Below are positions 556 to 11,236 of a DNA stretch of 11,236 nt, piece after piece (the stretch's first letter is position 1; every line of letters begins with the position of its first letter). Under the pieces are notes generated by a model. The model ran no database searches. It was not told the origin of the DNA and saw only the letters and a program-made list of their open reading frames with translations. Made by a program: the position numbers and the translations under genes. Location: the NCBI GenBank assembly GCA_003647765.1, contig QMNM01000020.1, positions 1-11,236 of the forward strand, read 5' to 3'. This stretch comes from Candidatus Cloacimonadota bacterium. GTDB lineage: Bacteria > Cloacimonadota > Cloacimonadia > JGIOTU-2 > B8-G9.

Positions 556-825
556 ATGCAGTATAAAAATACTTCTAATCTATTAAAATGGGTTGTTGGA
601 TGGAACTGTTTAGAAGATGAATGCAGTGAAGAATTCTTATTTGAACTAAGAGGGAAAATGGTTTTTGATTTAGAAATTGAATTTCCATTACTCAATAAAA
701 TATCAGTTGATGATATGCAATTCACTCGTAAAAATTCAGATTGGGAACAAAAATATTATAGTATAACTTTTTCAGAAGCTTTTATTTCTGAAATTCATAC
801 ACACTATCCAGAACATTTAATTTAA
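556..825 (+). CDS. Small protein with YPExxI C-terminus (paralogue family)
   Basis: This 89-residue protein begins at ATG 556, immediately after the preceding stop and without an obvious ribosome binding site, so it probably depends on coupling. Its function is unknown. It ends HYPEHLI, an instance of the Tyr-Pro-Glu-x-x-Ile tail found on many small proteins here. The C-terminal half aligns by eye with the proteins at 3583-3855 and 4171-4419: an FP pair, a conserved Phe about ten residues on, SxW (NSDW here, NSQW in 4171-4419), then an Ile/Phe-rich strand leading into YPE. The three look like distant paralogues of about 80-90 residues. No membrane or metal-binding motif is visible. Confidence 0.75.
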   Translation: MQYKNTSNLLKWVVGWNCLEDECSEEFLFELRGKMVFDLEIEFPLLNKISVDDMQFTRKNSDWEQKYYSITFSEAFISEIHTHYPEHLI

Positions 826-837
826 CAAAGGAAACTT

Positions 838-1401
838 ATGCCAAATCATGTAACGAATAAATTAGTCGCTAACGGAACACCAGAAGATACGAAAAATATC
901 TTTAGCTCATTAAAAACAGAGAACTCTGATTTTGATTTCAATAAAATTTTACCTATGCCAGAAGAACTCGTAAATACAACATCAGGTTCTTCTGAAAAAA
1001 CTAACCCAGATTTTATTGCTAAATATGGTTATGATAATTGGTATAACTGGTCTAATGCAAATTGGGGAACAAAATGGAATGCGTATGATGTAGAACATAT
1101 TTCTGATACAGAAGTTCAATTTGATACAGCTTGGTCTTGTGCAGATAACCTTATTGCAAAGTTATCATCTTTACACCAAACAGTTGAATTTGTTTTAACA
1201 TTTGCAGATGAAGATACTGGTAGTAATTGTGGAATAATTACATACAAAAATGGTGAAACATTAAGCTATGAAGATAAATCAATGGGTAATCTTGAATCTG
1301 ATGAAGCTTCTATGAGATGGGCTATGATTGTTAAATATGGCAATGATGATGATTATGAAGAATGGTTTGGAGATGAAGACGAAGAAGATGAAGAATACTA
1401 A
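838..1401 (+). CDS. Api92-like (DUF1281/YubB-type) protein
   Basis: This 187-residue protein resembles the Api92-like ferredoxin-fold family found on plasmids and phages (YubB, DUF1281). Visible hallmarks are the N-terminus MPNHVTNKL, the segment FDFNKILPMPEEL at residues 32-44, NWGTKWNAYD at 75-84, and FDTAWS at about 95-100. The family has no established biochemical role; some members sit among anti-restriction or conjugation genes. The last 20 residues are almost entirely acidic (DDDYEEWFGDEDEEDEEY), which could mimic nucleic acid or mask a basic partner, but this is inference. The start is ATG 838 with AAAGGA at 827-832. The gene ends directly against the RNA ligase start at 1402, so the two are probably co-expressed. 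Confidence 0.85.
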   Translation: MPNHVTNKLVANGTPEDTKNIFSSLKTENSDFDFNKILPMPEELVNTTSGSSEKTNPDFIAKYGYDNWYNWSNANWGTKWNAYDVEHISDTEVQFDTAWSCADNLIAKLSSLHQTVEFVLTFADEDTGSNCGIITYKNGETLSYEDKSMGNLESDEASMRWAMIVKYGNDDDYEEWFGDEDEEDEEY

Positions 1402-1839
1402 ATGAAAAAATATCCAAGGACATTACATTTTCAATTCTCTCCAGAAATACATGCAGATGATAAAGTAATATCACTTAAGTATCTTGGTAATTTTCTCCAA
1501 AGAGAAATAATTATTACGGAGAAATTAGATGGTGCTAATTGTGTAGATGGCGACACAATTTTAAATACCTCTGCTGGTGAAAAAACAATCAGAGAGATTC
1601 ATGAAACTAATTACAGAGGATTAGTCGAAAGCTATAATATCTCTAATGGTGAAATAGAATTTAGACAAATTCTTAATAGTTTTATTGCAACTGATAATGA
1701 TGAGTGGTATGAAATAGAAGATACTGAAGGTAATTGCTTAAAAGTTACTGAAGAACATCTTGTTTATCTCCCAGAACTAAATTGCTATAGAAAAGTTAAG
1801 GAATTAAAAGAAGGTGATAAAATATTACTGAAAAGTTAG
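1402..1839 (+). CDS. RNA ligase N-terminal fragment fused to split-intein N-half
   Basis: The first 46 of 145 residues are the N-terminus of an ATP-dependent RNA ligase (Rnl2-like RNA_ligase family). They end in motif I, EKLDGAN, whose lysine (K41) is the expected adenylation nucleophile. Residue 47 is Cys1 of an intein: CVDGDTIL is a typical block A, T116-x-x-H119 (TEEH) is block B, and the fragment ends LKEGDKILLKS just before the stop. Ligase motifs III to V are absent here and lie on the product of 2941-3582. This half is therefore expected to be inactive until trans-splicing joins the two exteins into a protein of about 220 residues. The ATG directly follows the stop of the Api92-like gene. 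Confidence 0.9.
   Translation: MKKYPRTLHFQFSPEIHADDKVISLKYLGNFLQREIIITEKLDGANCVDGDTILNTSAGEKTIREIHETNYRGLVESYNISNGEIEFRQILNSFIATDNDEWYEIEDTEGNCLKVTEEHLVYLPELNCYRKVKELKEGDKILLKS
1540..1836 (+). other. Split intein, N-terminal half (IntN, 99 residues)
   Basis: The coding segment runs from Cys1 (TGT at 1540-1542) to the last codon before the stop. It carries the acyl-shift cysteine, a block A VDGDTIL segment and the block B T-x-x-H pair. It stops where a contiguous mini-intein would continue into its endonuclease or linker region. The complementary half is at 2941-3057. Insertion directly after the ligase KxDGxN motif fits the usual intein preference for active-site codons. Confidence 0.9.
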
Positions 1840-1867
1840 ATAAACATCAAATTTTTTGGTAAAATGG

Positions 1868-1875
1868 TATAAATA
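1868..1875 (+). promoter_or_regulatory. T4-type late promoter box TATAAATA before endonuclease 1
   Basis: TATAAATA at 1868-1875 is an exact match to the T4 late -10 box. It lies between the IntN stop and the endonuclease start at 1907, with AAGGA at 1894-1898 as the ribosome binding site. The same octamer precedes the second endonuclease (8065-8072) and, on the minus strand, the sensor gene. T4-type late promoters need no -35 element. Use of a T4-like late sigma is inferred. Confidence 0.6.
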
Positions 1876-1906
1876 AGTATAGATAAAAACTATAAGGATT
1901 TATATT

Positions 1907-2281
1907 ATGACAACTTGTTTTAATTGTGGTAGAGAGTTAAAAGGGAATTCGAGACATGTAGTAGTTTGTGCTGGTAATAAAAATATATCAAAAGAAAATG
2001 CTAGGATATTACAAATAAATCACAAAGTTGGATTTGAGATAACAAAAGAATATCTTGATTCATTATACATTAAAGAAGAAAAGAGTCTTCCAGAATTAAG
2101 TGAAATACTTAAAATCTCTTTTAAGGAAATAACTCATGTATTAGATTACTATAAGATTCCTAGAAGAAACCAAAAGGGTGCCGGAAAAAAAAGAGCAATT
2201 AAAGCAAAAGCAACCCTACAAGAAAAATTTGGTGTTGATAATGTGTCACAACTTAAAAGTGTTAAAGAAAAAAACATTTAG
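1907..2281 (+). CDS. Vsr-like homing endonuclease, N-terminal DNA-binding part (frameshifted)
   Basis: This 124-residue frame is the front of a homing endonuclease continued in another frame at about 2274. Residues 4-7 are CxxC (CFNC), with a further Cys at 21, like a small zinc ribbon. Residues of about 46-86 read as a helix-turn-helix (LYIKEEKSLPELSEIL to YYKIPRR). A GVDN-type repeat (EKFGVDNVSQ) follows and recurs after the frame change as ENYGVDNIFQ. The frame ends at TAG 2279-2281 just past a run of seven A's at 2268-2274. Removing one base there would give a continuous protein of about 351 residues. The start ATG 1907 has AAGGA nine bases before it and its own late-type promoter box. 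Its likely role is spreading the split-intein insertion. Confidence 0.8.
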   Translation: MTTCFNCGRELKGNSRHVVVCAGNKNISKENARILQINHKVGFEITKEYLDSLYIKEEKSLPELSEILKISFKEITHVLDYYKIPRRNQKGAGKKRAIKAKATLQEKFGVDNVSQLKSVKEKNI

Positions 2282-2963
2282 AGAAAATTATGGTGTTGAT
2301 AATATTTTTCAAGCTGATTTCTTTAAAGAAATCAGTAATGCTACGATGATGAAAAAATATGGTCAGCTTTCAGTTTCAACATACCATAATAGACATAAAG
2401 ATTTAACAGATGAAAAAAGAGCAGAATTATACAAGAACTTACAACTTAGTTATTGGAAATGGTATAACTCTCTAAGTGAAGAGGAACTTCTAAAACTTCA
2501 ACAAAGAAAAAATGCTGGTTGGAGAAAGTATTATGATAGTTTAACTTCTGAAGAAAGAACTCAGAAAATGAAACATTTATGGAATGGAAATATTTCAAAG
2601 CTTGAAATAAGAATTCAGACAATTTTAAGTAGTCTTTTAATATCATATAGTACACAGTTTGAAATCAAAAAAAAGTTTTTTGATATTAAAATAATCAACA
2701 CAAAAATAATTATTGAAGTAAATGGTGATTATTGGCATTGTAACCCTAATCTTTACAATTCAGATGACTTAGTTAATTTCCCAGATGGAACTAAGATAGC
2801 ATCATCTATTTGGGAAAGAGACAAAAAAAAGAATTTGTTGGCATCAGAACAAGGATACAAAGTAGTATTACTTTGGGAATCTGAAATTAAATGTAGAACC
2901 GATGAAGAACTAGAAACATTATTATTGGAGAAAATAAACAATGGAAAGAATAGCAACAATTAA
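2178..2963 (+). CDS. Vsr-like homing endonuclease, C-terminal nuclease part
   Basis: The meaningful sequence runs from about 2274; the first 30 or so residues of this frame overlap the N-terminal part in the wrong frame, and neither GTG 2178 nor ATG 2241 has a convincing ribosome binding site. The nuclease domain resembles the Vsr-like (EDxHD) homing endonucleases that accompany split inteins. In this frame's numbering it shows KLE (E143), FDI (D169), IIIEVNGDYWH (E180, D184, H187), D215 in ERDKKKN, and GYKVVLLWESE near 227-236. GVDN-type repeats lie before it. The 3' end overlaps the IntC start by 23 bases. A single-base frameshift separates it from its DNA-binding part, so the enzyme may be broken or depend on recoding. 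Confidence 0.75.
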   Translation: MPEKKEQLKQKQPYKKNLVLIMCHNLKVLKKKTFRENYGVDNIFQADFFKEISNATMMKKYGQLSVSTYHNRHKDLTDEKRAELYKNLQLSYWKWYNSLSEEELLKLQQRKNAGWRKYYDSLTSEERTQKMKHLWNGNISKLEIRIQTILSSLLISYSTQFEIKKKFFDIKIINTKIIIEVNGDYWHCNPNLYNSDDLVNFPDGTKIASSIWERDKKKNLLASEQGYKVVLLWESEIKCRTDEELETLLLEKINNGKNSNN

Positions 2964-3057
2964 AAGAATTACTAAACTTCTGGAAAAAAGAGAAAAGTAT
3001 GATATTACAGTTGAAGAGAATCATAATTTTTTTGCTAATAATATTTTAGTTCATAAC
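2941..3057 (+). other. Split intein, C-terminal half (IntC, 39 residues)
   Basis: This segment runs from the start codon to Asn39 (AAC at 3055-3057) and is followed by Ser (AGC at 3058-3060). It contains the block F DITVEENH segment and the terminal HN pair needed for Asn cyclisation. Its length is typical of natural split-intein C-halves. Together with the 99-residue IntN it makes a mini-intein of about 138 residues. Confidence 0.9.
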
Positions 3058-3582
3058 AGCTGCTTAAAAGGTCATGAGGGAGTGTTTGCACGAAGTCATG
3101 CTTTACCAACTAAAGAACCTTGGTATGACCACCTTAAAGGTGTATATTATAGTAAGCTTTCAGTCCTAAAACCGAACTATTGGATTTTTGGTGAAAACAC
3201 CTTTGCTATCCATAGTATAGAATACACAGAAATGGAATCTTATTTCTATATCTTTGCTATCTATGATACAGATACAAATACTTGGTTATCGTATGATGAT
3301 ATGGTCGCCGAGGCTAAGAGAATAGATATTCCAACTGTTCCATTATTATTTAGAGGAACGGTTATGGATATGGCTTGGGTAAATAAATGGATGGATAAAT
3401 ATATGAAAGGGCAATTTTCTCTTTTAGGCGGTCCATTAGAAGGATTTGTTCTAAGAATAGCGGATGCTATACCAGGGGATAAGTTCCAAGAGTTTGTCGC
3501 TAAGTATGTTAGAGAAGGTCATGTTCAAACTAGTAAGCACTGGAAAGTAAATTGGAAACCTCAAAAACTAAAGGTAGATTAA
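2941..3582 (+). CDS. Split-intein C-half fused to RNA ligase C-terminal fragment
   Basis: Residues 1-39 are the C-terminal intein half, ending in a textbook block F/G: YDITVEENHNFF then NNILVHN, with penultimate His38 and terminal Asn39. Ser40 is the +1 nucleophile. The C-extein (residues 40-213) completes the RNA ligase: ARSH after motif I, motif III FGEN at 83-86, motif IV LEGFVLR at 166-172, and motif V KHWKVNWK at 199-206. Joined to the N-extein, the junction reads GAN-SCLKG, as an uninterrupted family member would. The ATG at 2941 has GGAG at 2927-2930 and lies inside the endonuclease 3' end. RNA ligases of this kind are usually thought to reseal tRNA or other RNA cleaved during host defence; that role is family knowledge, not seen here. 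Confidence 0.9.
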   Translation: MERIATIKRITKLLEKREKYDITVEENHNFFANNILVHNSCLKGHEGVFARSHALPTKEPWYDHLKGVYYSKLSVLKPNYWIFGENTFAIHSIEYTEMESYFYIFAIYDTDTNTWLSYDDMVAEAKRIDIPTVPLLFRGTVMDMAWVNKWMDKYMKGQFSLLGGPLEGFVLRIADAIPGDKFQEFVAKYVREGHVQTSKHWKVNWKPQKLKVD

Positions 3583-3855
3583 TTGGTAATTAAAAAGTTC
3601 ATAGACAAGTTTAAGGGTGTTTTCATTGAATGCACCAAACTTGGGGTTGGAACAAAAATGCAAGAGGACACATTCAGAGACTCTATCAAATCCACATACC
3701 CTTTAGTTTCAGAAGAAGCTTCAAGACAATTTACTATTCAGGTTGTCAAACATCCAATGGATTTTAGGTTAGATTATAGATACTCCTGTGAAATATTATT
3801 TTCATCAGAATTAAAACAAGAACTTACAGAATTATATCCAGAAAAATTAATATAA
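3583..3855 (+). CDS. Small protein with YPExxI C-terminus, TTG start
   Basis: This is a 90-residue protein if started at TTG 3583, directly after the ligase stop, with AAGGT at 3571-3575 as ribosome binding site. An alternative start is ATG 3658, which would leave 65 residues. Function is unknown. It ends LYPEKLI. The region from TYPL to the end aligns loosely with the genes at 556 and 4171: an aromatic-Pro pair, a conserved Phe, an Ile/Leu-Phe strand, then YPE. The N-terminal 25 residues are basic (VIKKFIDKFKG). No membrane segment or metal site is visible. Tight packing behind the ligase suggests co-transcription. Confidence 0.7.
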   Translation: MVIKKFIDKFKGVFIECTKLGVGTKMQEDTFRDSIKSTYPLVSEEASRQFTIQVVKHPMDFRLDYRYSCEILFSSELKQELTELYPEKLI

Positions 3856-3865
3856 GGGTGAAAAT

Positions 3866-4174
3866 ATGATTGATATTAATTATAAGTACTATCTTGACTT
3901 GGAAGAATTTAAGGTAAAGTTGCCAAATGAGGTCGATTCAGATTCAAAAAAAGCAGCTAACATCCTTAGAAACAATGGCTACTCTGGCTTCCATGGTTCA
4001 AGGGGTGAAGCAGAACAAGCAATCATCAAGAAAGAAATTAGTCATCTGAAGTATGCACTTAGAGATACAATGGAAACAGATGATGAATATTTGGAAATGT
4101 CTGCAAGATTAAAAACTATAAGAGCAAAAATACCGACTATAACAGAAGCTAATTATCCGGAGTGGTTTATATGA
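3866..4174 (+). CDS. Small protein with YPExxI C-terminus
   Basis: This 102-residue protein of unknown function starts at ATG 3866 with AAGGGTG at 3854-3860. It is rich in charged residues, with a likely helical stretch around residues 50-90 (EAEQAIIKKEISHLKYALR and beyond). It ends NYPEWFI. The Pro-Glu codons of this tail are CCG GAG, and the GGAG within them (4159-4162) sits eight bases before the next ATG at 4171, so the tail-coding DNA doubles as that gene's ribosome binding site. The stop overlaps the next start as ATGA. Confidence 0.75.
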   Translation: MIDINYKYYLDLEEFKVKLPNEVDSDSKKAANILRNNGYSGFHGSRGEAEQAIIKKEISHLKYALRDTMETDDEYLEMSARLKTIRAKIPTITEANYPEWFI

Positions 4175-4419
4175 CATTAGAAACTTTAACCAAAGAAACT
4201 ATCACTATATTTGACAGTGTTAATCACCATAATACGGATTTAGATTTAATCGTAATCAATCAGATGAAAAATAATTTTCCAAGCTTCCATTGCACAAAAG
4301 ATGATTTTAACATCGCTGTGCATGAAAATAGTCAATGGGGAGAAACATTATTTGACATTAATTGGAACACAACATTCATAAATACTTTCGGAGAGGTTTA
4401 TCCAGAAGCAATCATCTGA
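4171..4419 (+). CDS. Small protein with YPExxI C-terminus (paralogue family)
   Basis: I place the start at ATG 4171 rather than GTG 4162, because GGAG at 4159-4162 is then ideally spaced and the start overlaps the preceding stop as ATGA. The 82-residue product has no recognised function. Its C-terminal half (NNFPSF, DDFNIAVHENSQWGE, then a Phe-rich strand) aligns by eye with that of the protein at 556-825, and it ends VYPEAII. It is the last plus-strand gene before the convergent sensor gene, whose coding region ends only four bases away. I see no terminator hairpin between them. Confidence 0.75.
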   Translation: MTLETLTKETITIFDSVNHHNTDLDLIVINQMKNNFPSFHCTKDDFNIAVHENSQWGETLFDINWNTTFINTFGEVYPEAII

Positions 4420-4423
4420 TTTA

Positions 4424-5647
4424 TTATTTTCGTTTTCCTCGTAACTTATCTTTTAATATTTTCAATTTGGCTATTTTTTCTGATGTTATATCTTGCCTTA
4501 TCGCTGTATACCCAACTTTAACTCCATCAATATCATAAGCTGGTGAGATTACTGCTCTTACCCAATAAAAACCACCATTTTTCTTCCGATTTTTAATTTC
4601 ACCATACCATACTTTATTATTATCAATCGTCTCCCACATCTCTTCAAACACACGTGCAGGTATATCTTTATGTCGCAACATATTATGATACTTTCCAATT
4701 AATTCTTCGCTTGAGAACTCACTTATCTTACAAAAAGCAGAACTAACATCAGTTATAACACCGAATAGATTTGTTTTACTGTATATCACACTAGTATCAA
4801 AATCAAGAAACATACTCGAAATATTATGTTCTAAAGCAAGGTTTTTTAGAGTAATCTTTTTAGATTCTTCTGAATATTCAAATTCAAGATTTTCATTTAA
4901 GTTTGACAACTCTTCTTCACGCTTCATAATAATAAACCCATAGTATGTGAAAAGTATGAAGAATGATATCAGAACAAACCATACAATATGATTTCTCACC
5001 TCATTCAGTTGATTATGAATTGTTTTATCCAATGGAGTAAGTGTTTCTAAAACCCCTCTCATATCACCAACTTTCCAACGATTTGTGTCCCACATTCTAT
5101 CTTTATGGTTATTATGGCATTCAACACAAGCTTTGTGAGACATATAATTTGCTTTAGCTACTCTAATATATTCCATACCATCTATTATTTCCGTCTCCAT
5201 AATGATACCATCTTTTGCATTTTTAATTGTTTTAAGTATCCTTTTTTGTGAGCTTGATAAAATCCTATTTTTTCTATTCTTAAATGGTTCATCACTATAT
5301 AGAGTTGTAATTCTCTCTGGGTTTGCCATTCTACTTAAATCTTCAAGAAAAATTGCTGGTAATGGTAAAACACCGCCTACCTTCTTATGAATAGAACCAA
5401 ATGTAAATGGTTTTTCCAAACTTTGGTTCTTTTGGATGTCATCTATAATAAAATCGTTATAATACATTTTTGATGCTTCAAGAAAATATATTAGTTCCAA
5501 AGCATCTTTTTTAATGTAATCTTCAACTACTTGATCCATTTGAGCTGGAATATAGAGATATAAAGCCAAACTTAAGGCAGAATATATTAATATCATTGGT
5601 CTAAATAATTTATTCTTTATAATGTTTTTGTAGTTATATTTATGCAT
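4424..5647 (-). CDS. Membrane heme/PAS sensor (DUF3365-like plus Aer-type PAS)
   Basis: This 407-residue protein is the only minus-strand gene. In order: a first membrane segment at residues of about 14-33; an extracytoplasmic domain at about 34-218 resembling the Tll0287-like/DUF3365 sensor fold, with a c-type heme motif CVECH at 174-178; a second membrane segment at about 219-240; a short coiled coil at about 243-275; and a PAS domain at about 288-392 of the aerotaxis-receptor type (GVITDVSSAF, then MLRHKDIP, then NGGFYWVRA). There is no kinase, GGDEF or chemotaxis signalling domain after the PAS, only a basic tail. Such sensors are common as longer proteins in Campylobacterota, so this looks like captured host cargo that may perturb redox or oxygen signalling (inference). 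The start has AGGA upstream and a late-type promoter box. Confidence 0.85.
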   Translation of the reverse strand: MHKYNYKNIIKNKLFRPMILIYSALSLALYLYIPAQMDQVVEDYIKKDALELIYFLEASKMYYNDFIIDDIQKNQSLEKPFTFGSIHKKVGGVLPLPAIFLEDLSRMANPERITTLYSDEPFKNRKNRILSSSQKRILKTIKNAKDGIIMETEIIDGMEYIRVAKANYMSHKACVECHNNHKDRMWDTNRWKVGDMRGVLETLTPLDKTIHNQLNEVRNHIVWFVLISFFILFTYYGFIIMKREEELSNLNENLEFEYSEESKKITLKNLALEHNISSMFLDFDTSVIYSKTNLFGVITDVSSAFCKISEFSSEELIGKYHNMLRHKDIPARVFEEMWETIDNNKVWYGEIKNRKKNGGFYWVRAVISPAYDIDGVKVGYTAIRQDITSEKIAKLKILKDKLRGKRK

Positions 5648-5675
5648 ATTAATTTCCTAGTATTACTTGTGAATA

Positions 5676-5683
5676 TATTTATA
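5676..5683 (-). promoter_or_regulatory. T4-type late promoter box TATAAATA (minus strand) before the sensor gene
   Basis: Read on the minus strand, 5683 down to 5676 is TATAAATA, 28 bases before the sensor start codon at 5647. The octamer matches the boxes in front of both homing endonuclease genes. This suggests that the cargo gene is expressed late, from the strand opposite the early-type genes. Confidence 0.55.
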
Positions 5684-5684
5684 T

Positions 5685-5697
5685 TTAGTTTAACTAA
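5685..5697. repeat. 13-bp near-palindrome TTAGTT-T-AACTAA
   Basis: Two 6-base arms flank one central base in the divergent promoter region between the sensor gene and the gene at 5743. A copy differing at one position (TTAGTTTAAGTAA) occurs at 45-57 inside the first promoter. It could be an operator, or a by-product of duplicated promoter sequence; A+T richness weakens the case. Confidence 0.35.
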
Positions 5698-5703
5698 TAA
5701 TAA

Positions 5704-5726
5704 TTTAAGTAAATTAAAGGTATAAT
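5704..5726 (+). promoter_or_regulatory. Promoter, TTTAAGTAA-N8-TATAAT
   Basis: TTTAAGTAA at 5704-5712 and TATAAT at 5721-5726 have exactly the spacing of the promoter at 49-71. It drives the small-gene run beginning at 5743, with AAGGAG at 5731-5736 as ribosome binding site. It diverges from the minus-strand late-type box at 5676-5683. Confidence 0.65.
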
Positions 5727-5742
5727 AGAAAAGGAGTAATTA

Positions 5743-5982
5743 ATGGATACAGATACAAACGAACTATTAGATTTTATGGAACCAATAAAAGCACACATTA
5801 TCGTTGCTCGAAATAAAGAATCAGAATTATCAGATGTTAAAAGGGCAATCAAAATATCACAACGGTATATGAATGAAGATAAACCACATGATTTTATGCT
5901 ATATGCAGATGATTTAACAGCCCTCCGTATCGCTCTTGATAAAAACTTTTCAATAGAAGAATACCCAGAGTTGTGGATATAA
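5743..5982 (+). CDS. Small protein with YPExxI C-terminus
   Basis: This 79-residue protein of unknown function has ATG 5743 six bases after AAGGAG at 5731-5736 and a dedicated promoter. It is probably all-helical, with two helices visible around residues 27-44 and 50-68. It ends IEEYPELWI, using TAC CCA GAG, codons that differ from most other copies of the tail. The stop is followed after one base by the ATG of the next gene. No homologous family is recognised. Confidence 0.75.
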   Translation: MDTDTNELLDFMEPIKAHIIVARNKESELSDVKRAIKISQRYMNEDKPHDFMLYADDLTALRIALDKNFSIEEYPELWI

Positions 5983-5983
5983 T

Positions 5984-6262
5984 ATGGCTTATACTTTTTT
6001 TTATGAAGAAGACCAATTTCATAATGATGTAGAAGAATATATCAATGGTTATATCAACCTCTATGAAATACAAGAAGCTTATCCTATACAAAAAGTTATT
6101 GCTGCTGTTCAAGATGCATACAATAGACAAGTAAAAGAATATGAGGATAATAGTGGGTGGAATAAAATTACTATCCTCTCAGCTCAACATGTGGTTAAAA
6201 ATGCGATTGAAGAAATTGAAGAAGAATATCCAATGGAGGAGTACCCAGAAAAATGGATTTAG
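5984..6262 (+). CDS. Small protein with doubled YP.E C-terminal segment
   Basis: This 92-residue acidic protein of unknown function starts one base after the preceding stop; GGA at 5975-5977 is its only nearby ribosome-binding element. The N-terminus is rich in aromatic and acidic residues (YTFFYEEDQF). The end reads EEYPMEEYPEKWI, as if the tail had been partly duplicated. The GGAGGAG at 6235-6241 inside this tail region is the best ribosome binding site for the next gene at 6253, which begins before this one ends. No known domain is recognised. Confidence 0.75.
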   Translation: MAYTFFYEEDQFHNDVEEYINGYINLYEIQEAYPIQKVIAAVQDAYNRQVKEYEDNSGWNKITILSAQHVVKNAIEEIEEEYPMEEYPEKWI

Positions 6263-6492
6263 CAGAAGTAGGCGATTTAGTCAAGCATGTAGATGACTAT
6301 TCAGTATGGTTATCAAGAATTACACATATAGATAGTAATAGGTTCTTGTCTGTAAAAGACGAGTTCATACTTTACAATAATTCAGGGCATATATTATCTG
6401 ATACGGGTATTGGTGACGACGATATACACGAAAATTATGGTAAAATCACTCTTGAAGAATGGTTTGAAATATATCCAGAATACAGAATTTAG
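6253..6492 (+). CDS. Small protein with YPExxI C-terminus
   Basis: This 79-residue protein overlaps the preceding gene by ten bases. Its N-terminus (EVGDLVKHVDDYSVWLSRITHID) looks like the opening strands of a small SH3-like barrel and is mildly similar to the start of the truncated gene at 11091 (KVGDVVYYYRTINPMRIG); this is a by-eye resemblance only. It ends IYPEYRI. The following promoter's upstream element begins inside its last codons, marking the end of this operon. Function is unknown. Confidence 0.75.
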   Translation: MDLAEVGDLVKHVDDYSVWLSRITHIDSNRFLSVKDEFILYNNSGHILSDTGIGDDDIHENYGKITLEEWFEIYPEYRI

Positions 6493-6510
6493 TATATTTT
6501 AATGTATAAT
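6488..6510 (+). promoter_or_regulatory. Promoter, TTTAGTA-N10-TATAAT
   Basis: TATAAT at 6505-6510 is preceded by TTTAGTA at 6488-6494. The 17-base distance from the first T of the upstream element to TATAAT equals that in the promoters at 49-71 and 5704-5726. It would drive the genes at 6540 and 6843. Confidence 0.5.
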
Positions 6511-6539
6511 AATAACAAACAATATAGTAAGGAACTAAA

Positions 6540-6830
6540 ATGAAAATTATCTCACAATGGTGGAACTCGTTTATTAATCTATTTAGCTCGGACACAGAAG
6601 CCGAAACTAAAGAAGTAAAAGAAGTCAAAACCGACAAAGATGTAGTAAAGGTCGTAAGAGCTTCAACTGCAATCAAAATGATTACGGAATCAATTAAAAC
6701 AGAAACAGATTCTGGAAAAAAGAAATACAAATCAAGACTTTCAAGAGAACTTAATAAAGCTATTGAAGCGAAAGACAAATTAGAAGTATCTAAAAGTGTA
6801 TTAAAGATTGTTAAATACTTAAACAAATAA
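6540..6830 (+). CDS. Small charged protein of unknown function
   Basis: This 96-residue lysine- and glutamate-rich protein starts at ATG 6540 with AAGGA at 6529-6533. After a short hydrophobic, tryptophan-containing start (IISQWWNSFINLFSS), which could be an amphipathic helix, it becomes strongly charged (ETKEVKEVKTDKD, then KKKYKSRLSRELNK). It is likely helical throughout. There is no YPE tail; it ends YLNK. It stands just before the methyltransferase gene and may be co-transcribed with it. Nothing identifies its function. Confidence 0.7.
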   Translation: MKIISQWWNSFINLFSSDTEAETKEVKEVKTDKDVVKVVRASTAIKMITESIKTETDSGKKKYKSRLSRELNKAIEAKDKLEVSKSVLKIVKYLNK

Positions 6831-6842
6831 AAAAGGCTTGAA

Positions 6843-8069
6843 ATGACTATTGAGAACATATGTGCTCTTGAAAAGATAAAGAAATTAAAAGATAATTCAC
6901 AAGATATTATCTTTGCTGACCCACCTTATGCTCTTGGTTCAACAGTATTCATTGATACTGATGGAAAGCCAAAATATAAATCTGCTAAAGACTTTATGAG
7001 TAAGTGGGAAATGCCAGACCATACTTTTTGGGAATCATTTTTTGTGGAAGCAAATAGAGTTCTTAAATACGGTGGAAGAATTTTGTTCTTTGGTATTGAC
7101 AGACAACTTATGTTATTCCAGTATTATGGAGTAGCTGCTAAACTTGAAATCAAACAATCATTGTATTGGTATTTTATGAGTTCATTTCCAAAGAGTGCCG
7201 ACCTAAGTAAGAATATCGACAAACGACTTGGTGCAAAGCGAGAAGTTGTTGGTTATGACGAAGAAAAAGCCAAAAAAATGGCTAATTCAGCTTTTGGCTC
7301 TGGTGTCTATAAAGAGAATGGTTTCAATGACAATAGTATGGATGTTGATGGTGCTTGTACGATTACAGAAGCTGGTTCTGATTTAGGTCAGAAATACACT
7401 GGTTATAGATACTCTTTAAGTCCTATGAAACAAGTCCTTGAAACTATTATGGTATTCCAGAAAGGAACTAAAAATAAATCTGTTTTAGATGATGTTTTTG
7501 ATTTTGAGAATGGTGATACAACTATTAGTCCAAGCACTTGGGCAATTGATGACGGTAGAGTGCCTACATCTGATTCACTTGATGGTGGAGCAACTTCTTC
7601 TGACGGTGCAGTTATCAGTAAAGATGGTTTTGATAGACCGTGGATGCACGATGAAGATAAACTTGCTGAACACAAAGAAAAGATGAAAGAAAAAGTAGCT
7701 CAAGCACAAGCAACAGGTAGATACCCATCTCAACTAATTGTGGATACTGAAATTGCTGAAGCATTAGATGAACAAAGTGGAACTCTAACAAGTGGAGCAA
7801 GAAAATCTTCTTATACTCGTAGAGGTAAGAACCCTAATGACACTTATGGTAAGTTCAATGAAGTTCAAATGGATGATGCAAAAAAAGATAGTGGTGGTGC
7901 TTCAAGAATATTACACCAAATCGCTTATATGGACGAAGAATTAGATATCGCTATTTACAGTTCTAAAGTATCAACTAAAGAACGAAATGCTGGAACAACA
8001 ACTTATGAACTCAATCAAAAAATTGATAATAAAACCTTAAAATTAATAAAAAGTTACATTACTCTATAA
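6843..8069 (+). CDS. DNA methyltransferase, N-terminal fragment (beta type), fractured gene
   Basis: This fragment has 408 residues. DPPY, the catalytic motif IV of amino-methyltransferases (N6-adenine or N4-cytosine), is at residues 26-29. Family features follow: SSFPKSADLSKNIDKRLGA around 117-135, GRYPSQLIVD, and SKVSTKERNAG near the end. DPPY near the N-terminus marks the beta order, in which the SAM-binding FxGxG motif comes last. That motif is missing here and lies on the fragment at 9135-9416. After ERNAG about 20 residues (TTTYELNQ and on) lead to a stop at the endonuclease promoter, so the gene is interrupted by 8101-9054. No intein Cys1 or block A is present at the break. It probably modified phage DNA against restriction; its current activity is unclear. 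Confidence 0.85.
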   Translation: MTIENICALEKIKKLKDNSQDIIFADPPYALGSTVFIDTDGKPKYKSAKDFMSKWEMPDHTFWESFFVEANRVLKYGGRILFFGIDRQLMLFQYYGVAAKLEIKQSLYWYFMSSFPKSADLSKNIDKRLGAKREVVGYDEEKAKKMANSAFGSGVYKENGFNDNSMDVDGACTITEAGSDLGQKYTGYRYSLSPMKQVLETIMVFQKGTKNKSVLDDVFDFENGDTTISPSTWAIDDGRVPTSDSLDGGATSSDGAVISKDGFDRPWMHDEDKLAEHKEKMKEKVAQAQATGRYPSQLIVDTEIAEALDEQSGTLTSGARKSSYTRRGKNPNDTYGKFNEVQMDDAKKDSGGASRILHQIAYMDEELDIAIYSSKVSTKERNAGTTTYELNQKIDNKTLKLIKSYITL

Positions 8070-8072
8070 ATA
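8065..8072 (+). promoter_or_regulatory. T4-type late promoter box TATAAATA before endonuclease 2
   Basis: TATAAATA overlaps the stop codon of the methyltransferase fragment and lies 28 bases before the endonuclease ATG at 8101, close to the spacing of the box before the first endonuclease. AGGA at 8093-8096 is the ribosome binding site. Having its own late-type box would let the endonuclease be expressed independently of its host gene. Confidence 0.6.
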
Positions 8073-8100
8073 AATATATAACCATTAAAGGTAGGAAAAT

Positions 8101-9054
8101 ATGAAATGTATAGATTGTGGTATTGAAGTAAATAAAAAAAGAGTAAGACGATGTGAAGCTTGTGAAATTACAAGAAGGACAAAATTGTGTGAGCACTGTA
8201 AGGAAACTTTTGTAGATAAGACATCAAAAATAAATAAGATATTTTGTTCAAGAGAATGTGTTAATCTAAATATGAAAGGTAAAGTTTCAAAGAAAAGAAC
8301 TGGTATGGATATACCTTGTGAAGTATGCGGTAATTTATTTTATAAGCGATTGAATAGTAGCCAACGAACCTGTTCAATGCAATGTGGTGTCATGATAAAA
8401 CCTATACCTACAAAAAAGGGTTTTAATAATAAATGTAACGTATGTTCAAAAGAATATTATGTTCCACTTTGCCATAAAGATTCAAAATATTGCTCAAAAG
8501 AATGTGCCGATATTGGGCAACAATGCACAAAAATACCATTCAAATGTAAAATGTGTAAAAATATTTTTGAAGTATATCCTTCACGATTAAAACAACAAAC
8601 AGATAGAGGTGAACAGATTCAATATTGTTCTCAGAAATGTAGAGATTTAGACCCAATAAGAACAGAAATGCTTATTAAAATGAATGAAAATCAAAGTAAA
8701 AATAAGAAACTAAATAAATTGGAATTAGCTGGAAATTCAATACTTGAAGATTTATTTATTGAATATGACTCGCAATATTTGGTAGCTAAAAAATTCTTAG
8801 TTGATATTTTTATTGTAAAATATAATATAGTTATACAGTGGGATGGAGATTATTGGCACGGTCATCCTACAAAGTTAAAAGATGGAATACCGGATAAAAG
8901 ACAACAGAAAAGAATGAATTTTGATAAAAGTCAAGACAACTATATGTCTAAAATGGGTATTACTGTTTTAAGATTTTGGGAACATGATGTATATAAAAAT
9001 AAAGGAAAAATAATTGATATTATCAGAAACACAATACAATCAACTACCAGTTGA
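8101..9054 (+). CDS. Vsr-like homing endonuclease with five zinc-binding cysteine clusters
   Basis: This intact protein has 317 residues. The N-terminal 180 residues hold five CxxC pairs, each followed by a second cysteine pair (C3/C6 with C18/C21; C30/C33 with C49/C53; C73/C76 with C91/C95; C112/C115 with C131/C135; C149/C152 with C176/C180), a tandem of small zinc ribbons that should bind DNA. The C-terminal domain is Vsr-like: KLE (E208), VDIFI (D235), IQWDGDYWHGHP (D248, D250, H253), D275, then GITVLRFWEHD at 286-296. It shares GDYWH and the WE motif with the endonuclease at 1907-2963 but differs in its DNA-binding part. It sits between the two methyltransferase fragments, and its last 30 or so bases overlap methyltransferase coding sequence in another frame. 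Confidence 0.85.
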   Translation: MKCIDCGIEVNKKRVRRCEACEITRRTKLCEHCKETFVDKTSKINKIFCSRECVNLNMKGKVSKKRTGMDIPCEVCGNLFYKRLNSSQRTCSMQCGVMIKPIPTKKGFNNKCNVCSKEYYVPLCHKDSKYCSKECADIGQQCTKIPFKCKMCKNIFEVYPSRLKQQTDRGEQIQYCSQKCRDLDPIRTEMLIKMNENQSKNKKLNKLELAGNSILEDLFIEYDSQYLVAKKFLVDIFIVKYNIVIQWDGDYWHGHPTKLKDGIPDKRQQKRMNFDKSQDNYMSKMGITVLRFWEHDVYKNKGKIIDIIRNTIQSTTS

Positions 9055-9076
9055 TTTACAAAAATTATTTAATGAG

Positions 9077-9091
9077 AAGGAGGATGGGGTG
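9077..9091 (+). promoter_or_regulatory. Perfect ribosome binding site AAGGAGG before GTG 9089
   Basis: AAGGAGG at 9077-9083 is the strongest Shine-Dalgarno sequence in the window and lies five bases before GTG 9089, which opens MSRNTHPT. It is too far from ATG 9135 to serve that start well. It also encodes residues of the methyltransferase (EKED), so it may be coincidental. Confidence 0.4.
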
Positions 9092-9110
9092 AGTAGAAAT
9101 ACTCACCCCA
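9087..9110 (+). other. Perfect 10-bp hairpin with GAAA tetraloop
   Basis: GGGGTGAGTA at 9087-9096 and TACTCACCCC at 9101-9110 are exact reverse complements enclosing a four-base GAAA loop. It is by far the most stable hairpin seen in this A+T-rich window. It lies inside methyltransferase coding sequence and ends just before ACT, the last sense codon preceding the TAA at 9113. There is no following T-tract, so it is not an ordinary terminator. Confidence 0.75.
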
Positions 9111-9125
9111 CTTAAAACTCTTAAA
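9110..9125 (+). repeat. Imperfect tandem repeat ACTTAAA / ACTCTTAAA that breaks the reading frame
   Basis: ACTTAAA (9110-9116) is directly followed by ACTCTTAAA (9117-9125). Removing seven bases, either the first copy or bases 9113-9119, would read CAC CCC ACT CTT AAA CCA, that is HPTLKP, the canonical motif. The extra seven bases therefore shift the frame and insert a stop. Confidence 0.7.
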
Positions 9126-9134
9126 CCAATTAAG

Positions 9135-9416
9135 ATGATTTATAAGGTTGCTCAGTTACTTAAATCTCCTAATCCTCAAAATGTATTCTTTCCTTTTAGT
9201 GGAAGTGGTTCAGAGATTATAGGATTTATGAAAGCTGGGTTTGATAAAGAATTATTTGAGTGTTCAGAGCTTAGTGAAGATTATGTTGAAATTGCCCATA
9301 AGAGAATAGACTACTGGGAAAATGTTGACATGGAAGAATACATTGAATCCAAAAAATTAGTTGCAGTAGCACCTATCGTAGTAAAAGAAGATTCAAATGA
9401 AAATATTTTATTCTAA
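9135..9416 (+). CDS. DNA methyltransferase, C-terminal fragment with SAM-binding motif
   Basis: This 93-residue frame, open upstream to 9093, begins IYKVAQLLKSPNPQ and contains the motif I SAM-binding loop FFPFSGSGSE (residues 18-27), then the FECSELSEDYVEIAHKRI helix-strand that ends beta-type methyltransferases. It is the missing C-terminus of the enzyme at 6843-8069. ATG 9135 has only a weak upstream TTAAG, so the true start may be GTG 9089 followed by a recoding event, or the fragment may be untranslated. With DPPY on one fragment and FxGxG on another, activity would need non-covalent reassembly. It is followed by AAGGA and the gene at 9426. Confidence 0.75.
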   Translation: MIYKVAQLLKSPNPQNVFFPFSGSGSEIIGFMKAGFDKELFECSELSEDYVEIAHKRIDYWENVDMEEYIESKKLVAVAPIVVKEDSNENILF

Positions 9417-9425
9417 GGATACAAA

Positions 9426-9767
9426 ATGCCAAATAGATTTATAGTTACTAATGTAGAACATAGAACTGAACCAGAGCAATACCAAATAAGTGTTGCTGAT
9501 CCATATATGAATGGGTTTAGGGAAACAATACAACGACAACATCAATCATTTGAGCTTACTCTTCGACCAATGGATGTTGACGAAAATACAATGTTCAAAT
9601 TGAACAACATTGCACGAGCTGGTAGAACTGTTTCATTACAGGATACAGAATATGTAGATTTTATGGAACCGTTTAAGCAGCAGTTCATTGAATTTATGAT
9701 GGACAAACACCCTGAAAAGATTTTATCCGACCCAAAAGCTTGGGACAATCTATTAGGTAGAAACTAA
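9426..9767 (+). CDS. Small phage protein of unknown function
   Basis: This 113-residue protein starts at ATG 9426 with AAGGA at 9415-9419. No family is recognised. The sequence is mixed alpha/beta: strands near the start (RFIVTNVEH, EQYQISVADPY), then helices (TMFKLNNIARAG, MEPFKQQFIEFMMDK). It contains an internal HPEKIL at about residues 95-100, reminiscent of the YPExxI tail of its neighbours, but followed by 13 more residues (SDPKAWDNLLGRN). Its stop shares one base with the start of the SLOG gene, so the two are probably coupled. Confidence 0.75.
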   Translation: MPNRFIVTNVEHRTEPEQYQISVADPYMNGFRETIQRQHQSFELTLRPMDVDENTMFKLNNIARAGRTVSLQDTEYVDFMEPFKQQFIEFMMDKHPEKILSDPKAWDNLLGRN

Positions 9768-10135
9768 TGAGATTAGCGGTAGTAGGTAGTAGAAAATTTA
9801 CAGATTATGATACAGCAAAGGTTATATTAGATGAATTACAGAAAGATATTGGTTTTACTCGGATTGTTAGTGGTGGTGCTGATGGTGCTGACTCTTTAGC
9901 AGAAAAATATGCTTGGGCTAATGACTTAGAGTTATCAATTTTTGTTCCAGATTGGAGCATAGGTAAACAAGCAGGCTTCATTCGTAATGTGGAAATATGG
10001 GATAATGCAGATTTTGGTGTAGCTTTTTGGGATGGCAGAAGCAAAGGAACGGCCCATTCATTCAAACTCGCCAAAAAGCAGAACAAAAGATTATTCGTAT
10101 TCAATAATTTACTCAACGACTTCTACGAACTTTAA
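9767..10135 (+). CDS. SLOG-family protein, DUF2493 (YspA/cpYpsA-related)
   Basis: This 122-residue protein matches the DUF2493 branch of the SLOG superfamily, Rossmann-like proteins predicted to bind nucleotides or nucleotide-derived signals. Diagnostic segments are VVGSRKFTD at residues 5-13, IVSGGADGADSLAEKYA at 33-49, PDWSIGKQAGFIRN at 61-74, and VAFWDGRSKGTAH at 85-97. Length fits a stand-alone domain. The family is common in phages and plasmids with no proven reaction; sensing or hydrolysing a nucleotide signal made by host defences is one proposal. The start ATG 9767 overlaps the preceding stop, with AGGT at 9755-9758. Confidence 0.9.
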   Translation: MRLAVVGSRKFTDYDTAKVILDELQKDIGFTRIVSGGADGADSLAEKYAWANDLELSIFVPDWSIGKQAGFIRNVEIWDNADFGVAFWDGRSKGTAHSFKLAKKQNKRLFVFNNLLNDFYEL

Positions 10136-10158
10136 GCCCTTATTAATCTCCGATAGGA

Positions 10159-10164
10159 TATACT
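10159..10164 (+). promoter_or_regulatory. Possible -10 box TATACT
   Basis: TATACT lies in the 52-base gap before the membrane protein gene. A TTTAAG occurs at 10131-10136, but the spacing differs from the other promoters of this window. A short ACCCT/AGGGT inverted repeat follows at about 10165-10182. This is weak evidence. Confidence 0.25.
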
Positions 10165-10187
10165 ACCCTAAATATTAAAGGGTTTAT

Positions 10188-10796
10188 ATGAACATCAAAT
10201 CGGAATTTCTCAACAAGACCATACCTTGGTTTCCAAATTTCTCACTCGCTATGTTACTAATTTCAATTGTAATTGGTGGGTTTCTCAGTTTAATTATTAT
10301 AGGTTTTGAGCAAGGTATTTATGTTAAACTTATTGCATTAGCCGTAGGAATGGTAGTATTACTTGTATGGACATACGATACTTCTGTTACCGATAAGGAA
10401 GATAGAAACAAAACACTTAAGCAGGGTCTGAGTATCTTCATACTCACAATCTTAATAATGGAAACACCCCTTTATTTCAATTCTCATAGAGACAACCAAA
10501 TAACTAAAATATCAATCATTATTATAGACAAAACAAAAGACGGCTCAAGAATAAAAGATAATGATGAAGATAGTTCAAATGATAAATTCATTCAATTGAA
10601 GTATAAAGTGGTGTCATTCTATGATTTAGAAACTAATGAAAGAATTGGATATAGAAATGTTCAAGAGAATGAAAACAAACAACTGACTCTATATACCGAT
10701 ATAGTTGGGAAAGAAACATACATCAACTATCTACCATTCTTCATATATGATGTAACATACAGATATATCAGAGATACAAATACAACAGATGAATAG
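10188..10796 (+). CDS. Membrane protein of unknown function, three predicted segments
   Basis: This 202-residue protein has three hydrophobic segments at about residues 18-40, 46-64 and 80-96, followed by a soluble, acidic domain of about 100 residues (KDNDEDSSNDKF near the middle, strands such as LKYKVVSFYD after it). There is no cleavable signal peptide. I do not recognise the family. The start is ATG 10188 with AAAGGG at 10177-10182. The last eight bases overlap the next gene. Possible roles in the host envelope, such as exclusion or lysis timing, are speculation. Confidence 0.75.
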   Translation: MNIKSEFLNKTIPWFPNFSLAMLLISIVIGGFLSLIIIGFEQGIYVKLIALAVGMVVLLVWTYDTSVTDKEDRNKTLKQGLSIFILTILIMETPLYFNSHRDNQITKISIIIIDKTKDGSRIKDNDEDSSNDKFIQLKYKVVSFYDLETNERIGYRNVQENENKQLTLYTDIVGKETYINYLPFFIYDVTYRYIRDTNTTDE

Positions 10797-11094
10797 CACT
10801 CCTCCCCCAAAGTGGGTAATCATTGAAACTACTGTTGAAAATGGTTCTATAAGAAAGTGCCATCACCGTGTAAAAATGTTTGTTGCAAATGTAATACATG
10901 AACAAAGCACAGGATTAATTGACTTGAAAACATCAGAGGTTTATTCCCATGCATTTAATAACAAATGGTTTGGCACTGAAGAAATAGCAAATAAGTATAT
11001 TGCTAAATACCTCAAGGATGAGTTAATAGCTATGAAAGAAATGATTCAAATGATTGAAACTTTTACTAATAAAAACCCGGAGCTTATGATATGA
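10789..11094 (+). CDS. Small protein with NPExxI C-terminus
   Basis: This 101-residue protein starts at ATG 10789, overlapping the membrane protein stop by eight bases. It has a beta-rich first part (WVIIETTVENGS, VKMFVANVIHEQ) and a helical second half (EEIANKYIAKYLKDELIAMKEM). Function is unknown. It ends KNPELMI, a variant of the YPExxI tail with Asn in place of Tyr. As at 4171, Pro-Glu is encoded CCG GAG and the embedded GGAG (11079-11082) is positioned as the ribosome binding site of the next gene, which begins at 11091 with an ATGA overlap. Confidence 0.75.
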   Translation: MNSTPPPKWVIIETTVENGSIRKCHHRVKMFVANVIHEQSTGLIDLKTSEVYSHAFNNKWFGTEEIANKYIAKYLKDELIAMKEMIQMIETFTNKNPELMI

Positions 11095-11236
11095 CAATTG
11101 AAGAATACAACCTACTAAAAGTTGGTGATGTAGTATATTATTATAGGACTATTAACCCAATGAGAATTGGAACAATTAGTGCATCCTTAGTAAAGAAAGT
11201 CATCTCTCAGATTTTTGAGAGAGACGATGGTTCAAG
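11091..11236 (+). CDS. Small gene cut by the window end
   Basis: The ATG at 11091 overlaps the preceding stop (ATGA) and lies eight bases after GGAG. The visible 48 residues start MTIEEYNLLKVGDVVYYYR and run without a stop to the window edge. The KVGDVVYYYRTINPMRIG segment suggests an SH3-like small barrel and faintly resembles the N-terminus of the protein at 6253-6492. No function can be assigned. Confidence 0.7.
   Translation, partial: MTIEEYNLLKVGDVVYYYRTINPMRIGTISASLVKKVISQIFERDDGS

Follow-up and report, generated by a model that had tools for sequence, protein, structure and literature searches.

A short C-terminal tail, usually of the form [Y/H/F/N]-P-E-x-[F/L]-[I/V/L]-COOH and most often Tyr-Pro-Glu-x-x-Ile, looks like an undescribed molecular tag carried by up to a quarter of the proteins in some large phages. 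We consider it very probable that this tail is a shared C-terminal recognition tag, based on its positional excess, its exact C-terminal register, the unrelated bodies of the carriers, its having been gained or lost as an extension and its conservation among orthologues. The earlier note on this DNA had suggested a short linear tag, such as a docking site or a localisation or stability signal, a reading that gained support from the excess in the genome and its relatives, the unlike bodies and the occurrence of the tail as an added extension. In the open-licence literature on YPE C-terminal motifs in phages, jumbo-phage motifs and degrons we found no described equivalent. The genes of large phages are mostly small orphans with no function attached to them. 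For up to 79 such genes in one cultured phage, the tag is a first clue to a common feature; a single experiment that finds the binding partner of the tail could account for them jointly.

The analysed window, 11,236 nucleotides long, is the entire contig C20 of a 1.97-Mb MAG with 360 contigs and is part of a T4-like phage binned in this bacterial MAG. Checking the ORFs and tails of the window recovered all seven YPExxI tails and the NPELMI tail at the coordinates given before, with all three kinds of stop codons present among the tailed genes, and placed an HPEKIL within 9426–9767, listed alongside them in the earlier note, as internal and outside the phenomenon. The tailed genes and the gene at the contig end are as follows.
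556..825, plus strand: 89-aa carrier, tail YPEHLI (codons 805–822); ORF and tail; weak family A3; model pLDDT 80
3583..3855, plus strand: 90-aa carrier, tail YPEKLI; ORF and tail; family A3; listed with a TTG start, the actual start being uncertain
3866..4174, plus strand: 102-aa carrier, tail YPEWFI; tail codons CCGGAG...ATATGA extend into the start of the following carrier
4171..4419, plus strand: 82-aa carrier, tail YPEAII; family A3; ATG start overlaps the stop of the previous gene
5743..5982, plus strand: 79-aa carrier, tail YPELWI; ORF and tail
5984..6262, plus strand: 92-aa carrier, tail YPEKWI; ORF and tail
6253..6492, plus strand: 79-aa carrier, tail YPEYRI; paralogous to tailed proteins of contig C296
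10789..11094, plus strand: 101-aa carrier, tail NPELMI; ATATGA runs into the start of the following ORF (11091)
11091..11236, plus strand: 5' part of a further gene, truncated at the contig end; translation LKVGDVVYYYRTINPMRIGTISASLVKKVISQIFERDDGS

The translation of the truncated gene equals the start of an ORF on contig C243 (L013 3407–3769), which ends YPELLV. Most bodies of the carriers had been described as not alignable by eye, which is not entirely correct: those at 556, 3583 and 4171 are members of one weak alpha-alpha-beta-beta-alpha family (A3) with paralogues elsewhere. Searches of the window carriers against PHROGs and Pfam yielded no usable match.

The motif scan of the genome and its relatives, proposed earlier as a check, revealed a vast excess at the C-terminus. 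Within the MAG assembly the DNA pattern TAYCCNGARNNNNNNATHTRR occurred 22 times compared to once for the reversed control, almost exclusively on phage-like contigs. Pro-Glu at position −5 was found in 49 of the 171 called genes on the window's phage contigs, which were picked for their tails (0.75 expected; other offsets ≤1), in 35 of 385 in phage B, a complete 224-kb relative (1.04 expected), in 79 of 343 called genes of the cultured Vibrio phage Va1 (0.87 expected), as well as in 51 of 170 genes of the N4-like G009 (0.45 expected) and 38 of 151 of the N4-like G007 (0.49 expected). Overall, Pro-Glu stood five residues from the C-terminus 9–80 times per genome or large contig, compared to 0.1–1 expected, with adjacent offsets at background. 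Likewise, [YFH]PE with its aromatic residue exactly at −6 was observed 260 times and 0–3 times at any other offset, the Glu at −4 being near-invariant.

Tailed relatives were identified by a direct pattern scan of IMG/VR, and the tail occurs in two unrelated phage families, T4-like and N4-like. The cultured members of the tailed group are the unclassified T4-like Vibrio phages Va1, pv27, phiKT1024, phiTY18 and VB_VaC_TDDLMA; pattern counts versus control were 77 versus 0 for Va1, 74 versus 0 for pv27 and 79 versus 1 for TDDLMA, and phiKT1024 and phiTY18 are presumably tailed, given their close kinship to the other Vibrio members. KVP40, T4, N4 and Campylobacter phages are without the tail. Nearly all tailed orthologues of phages A and B retain the tail in both. 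Alignments of GyrA and PolB gave no relatives beyond phage B, and the 51 loci retrieved as relatives of a DUF1281 gene, which moves freely, contained no tails and later served as a control set. The 195-kb Va1 record has 135 annotated features, and many of the tail arrays are blank in it; 79 tailed genes were called here in Va1, so the tail is usable as a gene-finding aid. In its accessible part, the Pv27 paper leaves most ORFs hypothetical and contains no mention of a C-terminal motif (PMC12063606).

From the common ending we infer a common reader for all tails. The tag would be attached to a broad set of unrelated phage proteins, soluble and not late, and be read by one partner requiring a free C-terminus. 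Our candidate for this partner, put forward tentatively, is a pair encoded by the phage itself, a MoxR AAA+ ATPase and DUF2201; the explanation as a whole, a tag plus a MoxR/DUF2201 reader, we regard as rather probable. DUF2201 comprises an HExxH metallopeptidase-like domain and a VWA-like domain with an intact DxSGS MIDAS, its partner being an AAA_5 MoxR-type ATPase. Most DUF2201 relatives have the DxSGS, and many of those loci also contain a MoxR ORF; in G010/G014 another residue stands in place of the HExxH glutamate (HNxxH). The invariant Glu of the tail would fill the MIDAS metal site and its hydrophobic C-terminus would dock, after which the ATPase would remodel or unfold the carrier, perhaps as a prelude to its cleavage. 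CbbQO, a MoxR/VWA pair, depends on its MIDAS, on an acidic residue and on a C-terminal Rubisco motif whose position is critical (PMC4660213), and Rea1-MIDAS binds a ligand Glu (PMC6624252); by analogy with CbbQ/CbbO, other MoxR AAA+/VWA remodelling pairs and Rea1/Mdn1, the candidate reader would be an AAA+ with a VWA-MIDAS reading an acidic residue and, as in CbbQO, also a C-terminal motif. Those systems serve one or two substrates each, whereas the phage tail is proteome-wide, and they differ from DUF2201 in its extra HExxH domain. To our knowledge no function has been assigned to the MoxR/DUF2201 pair in N4-like phages, and we know of no phage MoxR/VWA member that reads a proteome-wide tag; the reading given here suggests a function for the pair.

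Of the proteins common to the T4-like and N4-like tailed phages, DUF2201 and MoxR rank among the most similar, and DUF2201 is present in B, Va1, pv27, TDDLMA, G009, G010 and G014. It adjoins or sits within tail arrays in B, Va1, G009 and G010/G014, and at locus L331 eight of the ten called genes around it are tailed; the neighbourhood enrichment per genome is modest (fractions 0.05–0.23). Loci fetched by DUF2201 alone contained tails in 14 of 22 close relatives, the other 8 showing none among the called genes of the DNA examined, and in 0 of 5 distant ones. After removal of known contigs, 10 of 18 new DUF2201 loci had tails compared to 0 of the 51 DUF1281 loci (P = 1.3e-7), an association that is confounded by phage ancestry. 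AD45-P1 has DUF2201 but only about 3 tail-like ends, and no DUF2201 was found in the fragments G007, G012 and G008, nor any relative of it in the window's MAG or its phage contigs, this phage being incomplete. It is a doubtful further step that two unrelated phage families would have an encoded genome-wide tagging system, with PE-x-hydrophobic-I on 10–30% of genes and a MoxR/metallopeptidase-VWA machine unfolding, degrading or remodelling the tagged proteins. If true, this would amount to a viral form of programmed protein turnover comparable to the ssrA or ubiquitin systems.

The carriers are soluble, membrane proteins being avoided among them (3/308 versus 81/574, P = 7e-13). Late promoters (TATAAATA) were associated with 0 of 22 carriers versus 29 of 190 (P = 0.05), and in Va1 neither the structural nor the core replication proteins have the tail. 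Together with the free hydrophobic C-terminus and its exact register, these promoter and Va1 data would also suit a degron (or anti-degron) at the C-terminus that a protease or chaperone of the host recognises, for instance ClpXP, Lon or Tsp; non-late proteins would thereby be cleared or spared on schedule. The ssrA tag and the C-motif degrons of ClpXP are similarly short C-terminal signals with a hydrophobic end and a free carboxylate. In contrast to ssrA, which is added by tmRNA, the tail is gene-encoded; the sequences are unrelated and the tail has no association with ClpP. We judge a host-read degron unlikely, as KVP40 is untailed despite having its host species in common with the Va1 group and as the host-type contigs of the MAG carry no tails. 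Genes for a phage ClpP are found in phages without the tail and are absent from the tailed phage B, a distribution that does not track the tail and on which we reject phage ClpP as the reader.

A recognition tag is also in line with the nature of the carrier bodies. The 334 carriers fell into 281 sequence-unrelated body clusters and the motif is bound to the exact C-terminus, contrary to the possibility, raised earlier, of one ordinary domain family with a YPE core. Among the bodies are a PolB-palm-like one, an SF1 helicase and, as predicted models, an SH3-like barrel and an alpha/beta fold. The tailed helicase has 490 aa and its orthologue without tail 471 aa (E = 6e-164), the tail forming a 19-residue extension, which indicates a modular add-on. 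In both AlphaFold models the tail is placed as a one-turn helix after the last helix, suggesting that part of it may pack against the body; a last strand of a common fold, another earlier proposal, is thus unsupported by the predictions. Foldseek searches of both models against the PDB gave no match at E ≤ 0.001. The fragment L014 3425–3769, which includes a PolB motif-A-like stretch, had no Pfam or PDB match and is therefore not claimed as PolB.

One could alternatively view the carriers as a single fast-evolving superfamily of small proteins, spread by tandem duplication, which kept a C-terminal helix and cap while the bodies diverged past recognition. Adjacent carrier pairs are indeed frequent (17 versus 3.1 by chance), the weak A3-type family is real with nine members, and a hydrophobic pattern at −13 and −10 is common to the carriers. 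The polymerase-like and helicase bodies and the two unlike predicted folds make such a superfamily improbable and the tailless helicase orthologue largely refutes it; moreover, a fold element should allow a residue beyond the final Ile, which was almost never seen among carriers.

Quite improbable is a role in packaging, with the tail directing small proteins into the phage head in the manner of the T4 capsid targeting sequence. The T4 tags are N-terminal, whereas the present tail is C-terminal, and neither the N-terminal position nor the late head proteins typical of the T4 sequence are seen with it. In the accessible parts of the sources, internal or ejection proteins are described for T4 as well as for giant phages, and a capsid targeting sequence for T4 (PMC7697877, PMC5694885). 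No late promoters lie ahead of the carriers and no carrier was seen among the annotated head genes of Va1. Encapsulin cargo-loading peptides resemble the tail in being one short C-terminal peptide on unlike proteins, there docking to one partner; they have few cargoes per system and another sequence, and the tail has no sign of shell loading.

For a clamp-binding epitope of the T4 type we see very little probability. T4 gp43, gp55 and gp33 provide the precedent of a short, interchangeable C-terminal clamp-binding peptide common to unrelated proteins (PMC2988020), and the tail is found on a polymerase-like fragment and a helicase. T4 has three such proteins, whereas up to 79 carry the tail, an implausible number of clamp ligands per phage, and the sequences differ. 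The epitope is expected on the replicative polymerase, yet the C-terminal piece of the Va1 polymerase ends ETESLDDW and its RNase H DDFGW, both acidic-aromatic and tailless, and on the polymerase end we set the clamp reading aside. The Va1 clamp itself lies at 105973–106677.

At the DNA level, the earlier statement that the tail is kept as protein and not as a DNA site proved right yet incomplete, since the tail codons also serve as a Shine-Dalgarno site. The Glu codon was GAG in 30 of 38 carriers whose stop overlaps the next start, compared to 8 of 46 elsewhere (P = 1.4e-8), indicating this double use. That the peptide is a mere by-product of coupling, CCRGAG-N6-ATATGA supplying a Shine-Dalgarno site and the next start, is extremely improbable. 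The non-overlapping carriers, about half of all, rule it out as the principal cause: in them the tail persists and GAA is at its background frequency. Neither the aromatic residue nor the Pro is required for a Shine-Dalgarno site, and in phage B all four Pro codons are used in the tails.

The tail, a six-residue C-terminal ending that usually reads YPExxI, is a real and widespread C-terminal tag with a candidate partner that is open to testing. All eight tails that the earlier note had located in the window were confirmed in place, and a motif scan of the genome and its relatives yielded a large excess of Pro-Glu at position -5 from the C-terminus. Each genome served as its own control, with Pro-Glu tallied at all distances from the C-terminus; genes were called mechanically as the longest ORFs with little overlap, so that gene totals are approximate. 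The window's phage (phage A, contigs of the same MAG picked for tails) exhibited 49 Pro-Glu at -5 versus 0.75 expected, and the 224-kb phage B from IMG/VR, reached via the gyrA-like gene of phage A (77% identity), 35 genes versus 1.04, the remaining offsets holding 0–4 each. The window is one entire contig of this MAG; the other tail-bearing contigs of the MAG contain phage genes (a topoisomerase II subunit, PhoH and phage-type ORFs), and its host-type contigs have no tails to speak of. Scanning IMG/VR for a single overlapping-gene form of the tail yielded contigs with long arrays (G-numbers).

Tailed genes in IMG/VR contigs (whole-contig counts) and in the cultured Vibrio phage Va1.
G009: 51 of 170 genes, 0.45 expected
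G007: 38 of 151 genes
G010 and G014, near-duplicate contigs: 24 of 74 genes each
G012: 14 of 100 genes
G008: 9 of 58 genes
Va1: 79 of 343 genes, 0.87 expected

The cultured Vibrio phages pv27 and TDDLMA resemble Va1 in tail abundance. Tail arrays lie where the deposited Va1 record (MK387337) has few or no features, e.g. 5497-10159 and 118081-122097, whereas the related pv27 record annotates such small genes.

The phages with tails belong to two families. One, T4-like and unclassified, comprises A, B, Va1, G007, G012 and G008, whose capsid gene is 67% identical to that of cultured Vibrio phages; the other is N4-like. The N4-like set comprises G010/G014, with a terminase 58% identical to that of Alteromonas phage AD45-P1, which has about three tail-like ends, and G009, sharing genes with G010/G014. 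No tail excess was present in T4, KVP40, Aeromonas 65, P-SSM2, Campylobacter CP220 and F379, RaK2-like K64-1, Atu_ph07, Phosso, OLIVR5, XaC1, phiKZ, G, pVa-21, N4 or VBP32. The host alone is insufficient to explain the tail, because tailless KVP40 and tailed pv27 both infect V. parahaemolyticus.

Across 334 carriers the consensus is [Y>H,F,N]-P-E-[L,Y,E,K]-[F>L]-[I>V,L]-COOH, with lineage-specific preferences (PEYFV in G007, PELFI in G009). The residues before it form a helix-like pattern, with hydrophobic ones at -13 and -10 and polar or charged ones at -12, -8 and -7. Aromatic-Pro-Glu lies at -6 in 260 proteins versus 0–3 at each adjacent offset, so that the signal almost certainly includes the free C-terminus. 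We found no published description of such a tail in the searchable literature.

The tail is a modular element and not a fold. Carrier bodies without it fall into 281 clusters (E<1e-4). Among the carriers are a PolB-palm-like protein present in both A and B, a 490-aa SF1 helicase and two families, one small and alpha-beta and one with an SH3-like barrel, the kind of fold diversity that by the earlier note would support a tag. On the helicase the tail is contained in an addition, KQTAKCAMKRKLICPEEFI, before which the G009 orthologue (E=6e-164) ends, and a second family has the tail in T4-like G007 and lacks it in N4-like G010. Orthologue pairs of A and B carry the tail in both members with two exceptions, one a PE-to-PQ change and the other an A frame that seems shifted. 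One tailed gene runs over two frames (fetched stretch L075, 1742-2015, versus phage B 50429-50713), by sequencing error or frameshift. In the stretch L014 (3079-3769), three successive frames with unlike bodies share near-identical last 13 residues, LKNxxxxxPEWLI, as if the tail region had itself been copied.

Carriers have a median length of 97 aa and rarely contain membrane-like stretches (3/308 versus 81/574 size-matched others, P=7e-13). T4-type late promoters (TATAAATA) were found upstream of Va1 structural genes; pooling Va1 and B, they preceded 0/22 carriers versus 29/190 others (P=0.05), and those Va1 proteins that are named as structural or replicative all lack the tail.

The proposal that the tail is kept as protein and not as a DNA site held, but was incomplete. 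The Glu codon GAA occurs at background frequency in non-overlapping carriers, whereas overlapping carriers use GAG in 30/38 cases (P=1.4e-8), CCG also being commoner. Because this bias is confined to overlaps, protein selection is primary, and the tail DNA is reused there as the downstream gene's ribosome-binding site.

Few proteins are common to the N4-like and T4-like tailed phages; the most similar include a PIN/PhoH-like protein, a MoxR AAA+ ATPase and DUF2201, which has metallopeptidase-like and VWA-like domains. Close DUF2201 relatives (E<1e-60) were found in B, Va1, pv27, TDDLMA, G009, G010, G014 and AD45-P1. RaK2-like phage, Atu_ph07, Phosso, XaC1, G, N4 and VBP32 have distant relatives only, and T4, KVP40, CP220 and F379 have neither kind. 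No relative was found in the window's MAG or the contigs of phage A, which is incomplete. The DUF2201 gene lies within or adjoining tail arrays, and among loci retrieved by DUF2201 alone tails accompanied 14 of 22 close relatives (10 of 18 without known contigs), compared with 0/51 control (DUF1281) loci and 0/5 distant relatives. A further contig, 4 kb long and listed under a Thermoplasmata MAG, holds DUF2201 amid eight tailed genes. In known MoxR/VWA pairs, the MIDAS recognises an acidic residue (PMC6624252, PMC4660213), and CbbQO additionally requires a position-critical C-terminal motif (PMC4660213). The phage pair is alike in its AAA+ and VWA-like make-up. Since published pairs read such features, MoxR/DUF2201 would be a natural candidate for a partner recognising the tail, which we advance tentatively, its support being an association confounded by ancestry. 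The DUF2201 of the stretch L280 (7930-9156), like its orthologue in G010, has HNxxH in place of the metallopeptidase motif HExxH, which may leave the peptidase of these phages inactive.

Several other genes were also observed. In the window, an apparent intein splits an RNA-ligase-like gene with an ITEKLDGAN motif (1402-1839, 1907-2963, 2941-3582), and between the halves lies a homing-endonuclease-like frame, itself shifted around 2178-2281; a zinc-finger/endonuclease-like ORF seems to interrupt a DNA-methylase-like gene (6843-8069, 8101-9054, 9135-9416). The phage DNA also has sensor-type genes, for a PAS-like sensor protein (window 4424-5647, minus strand) and a chemoreceptor-like protein (phage B 75026-77212), both named from sequence only. 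In the stretch L150 (479-1276), the SDTDS motif of a family B DNA polymerase piece continues directly into intein-like sequence (VTGDAILRT...).
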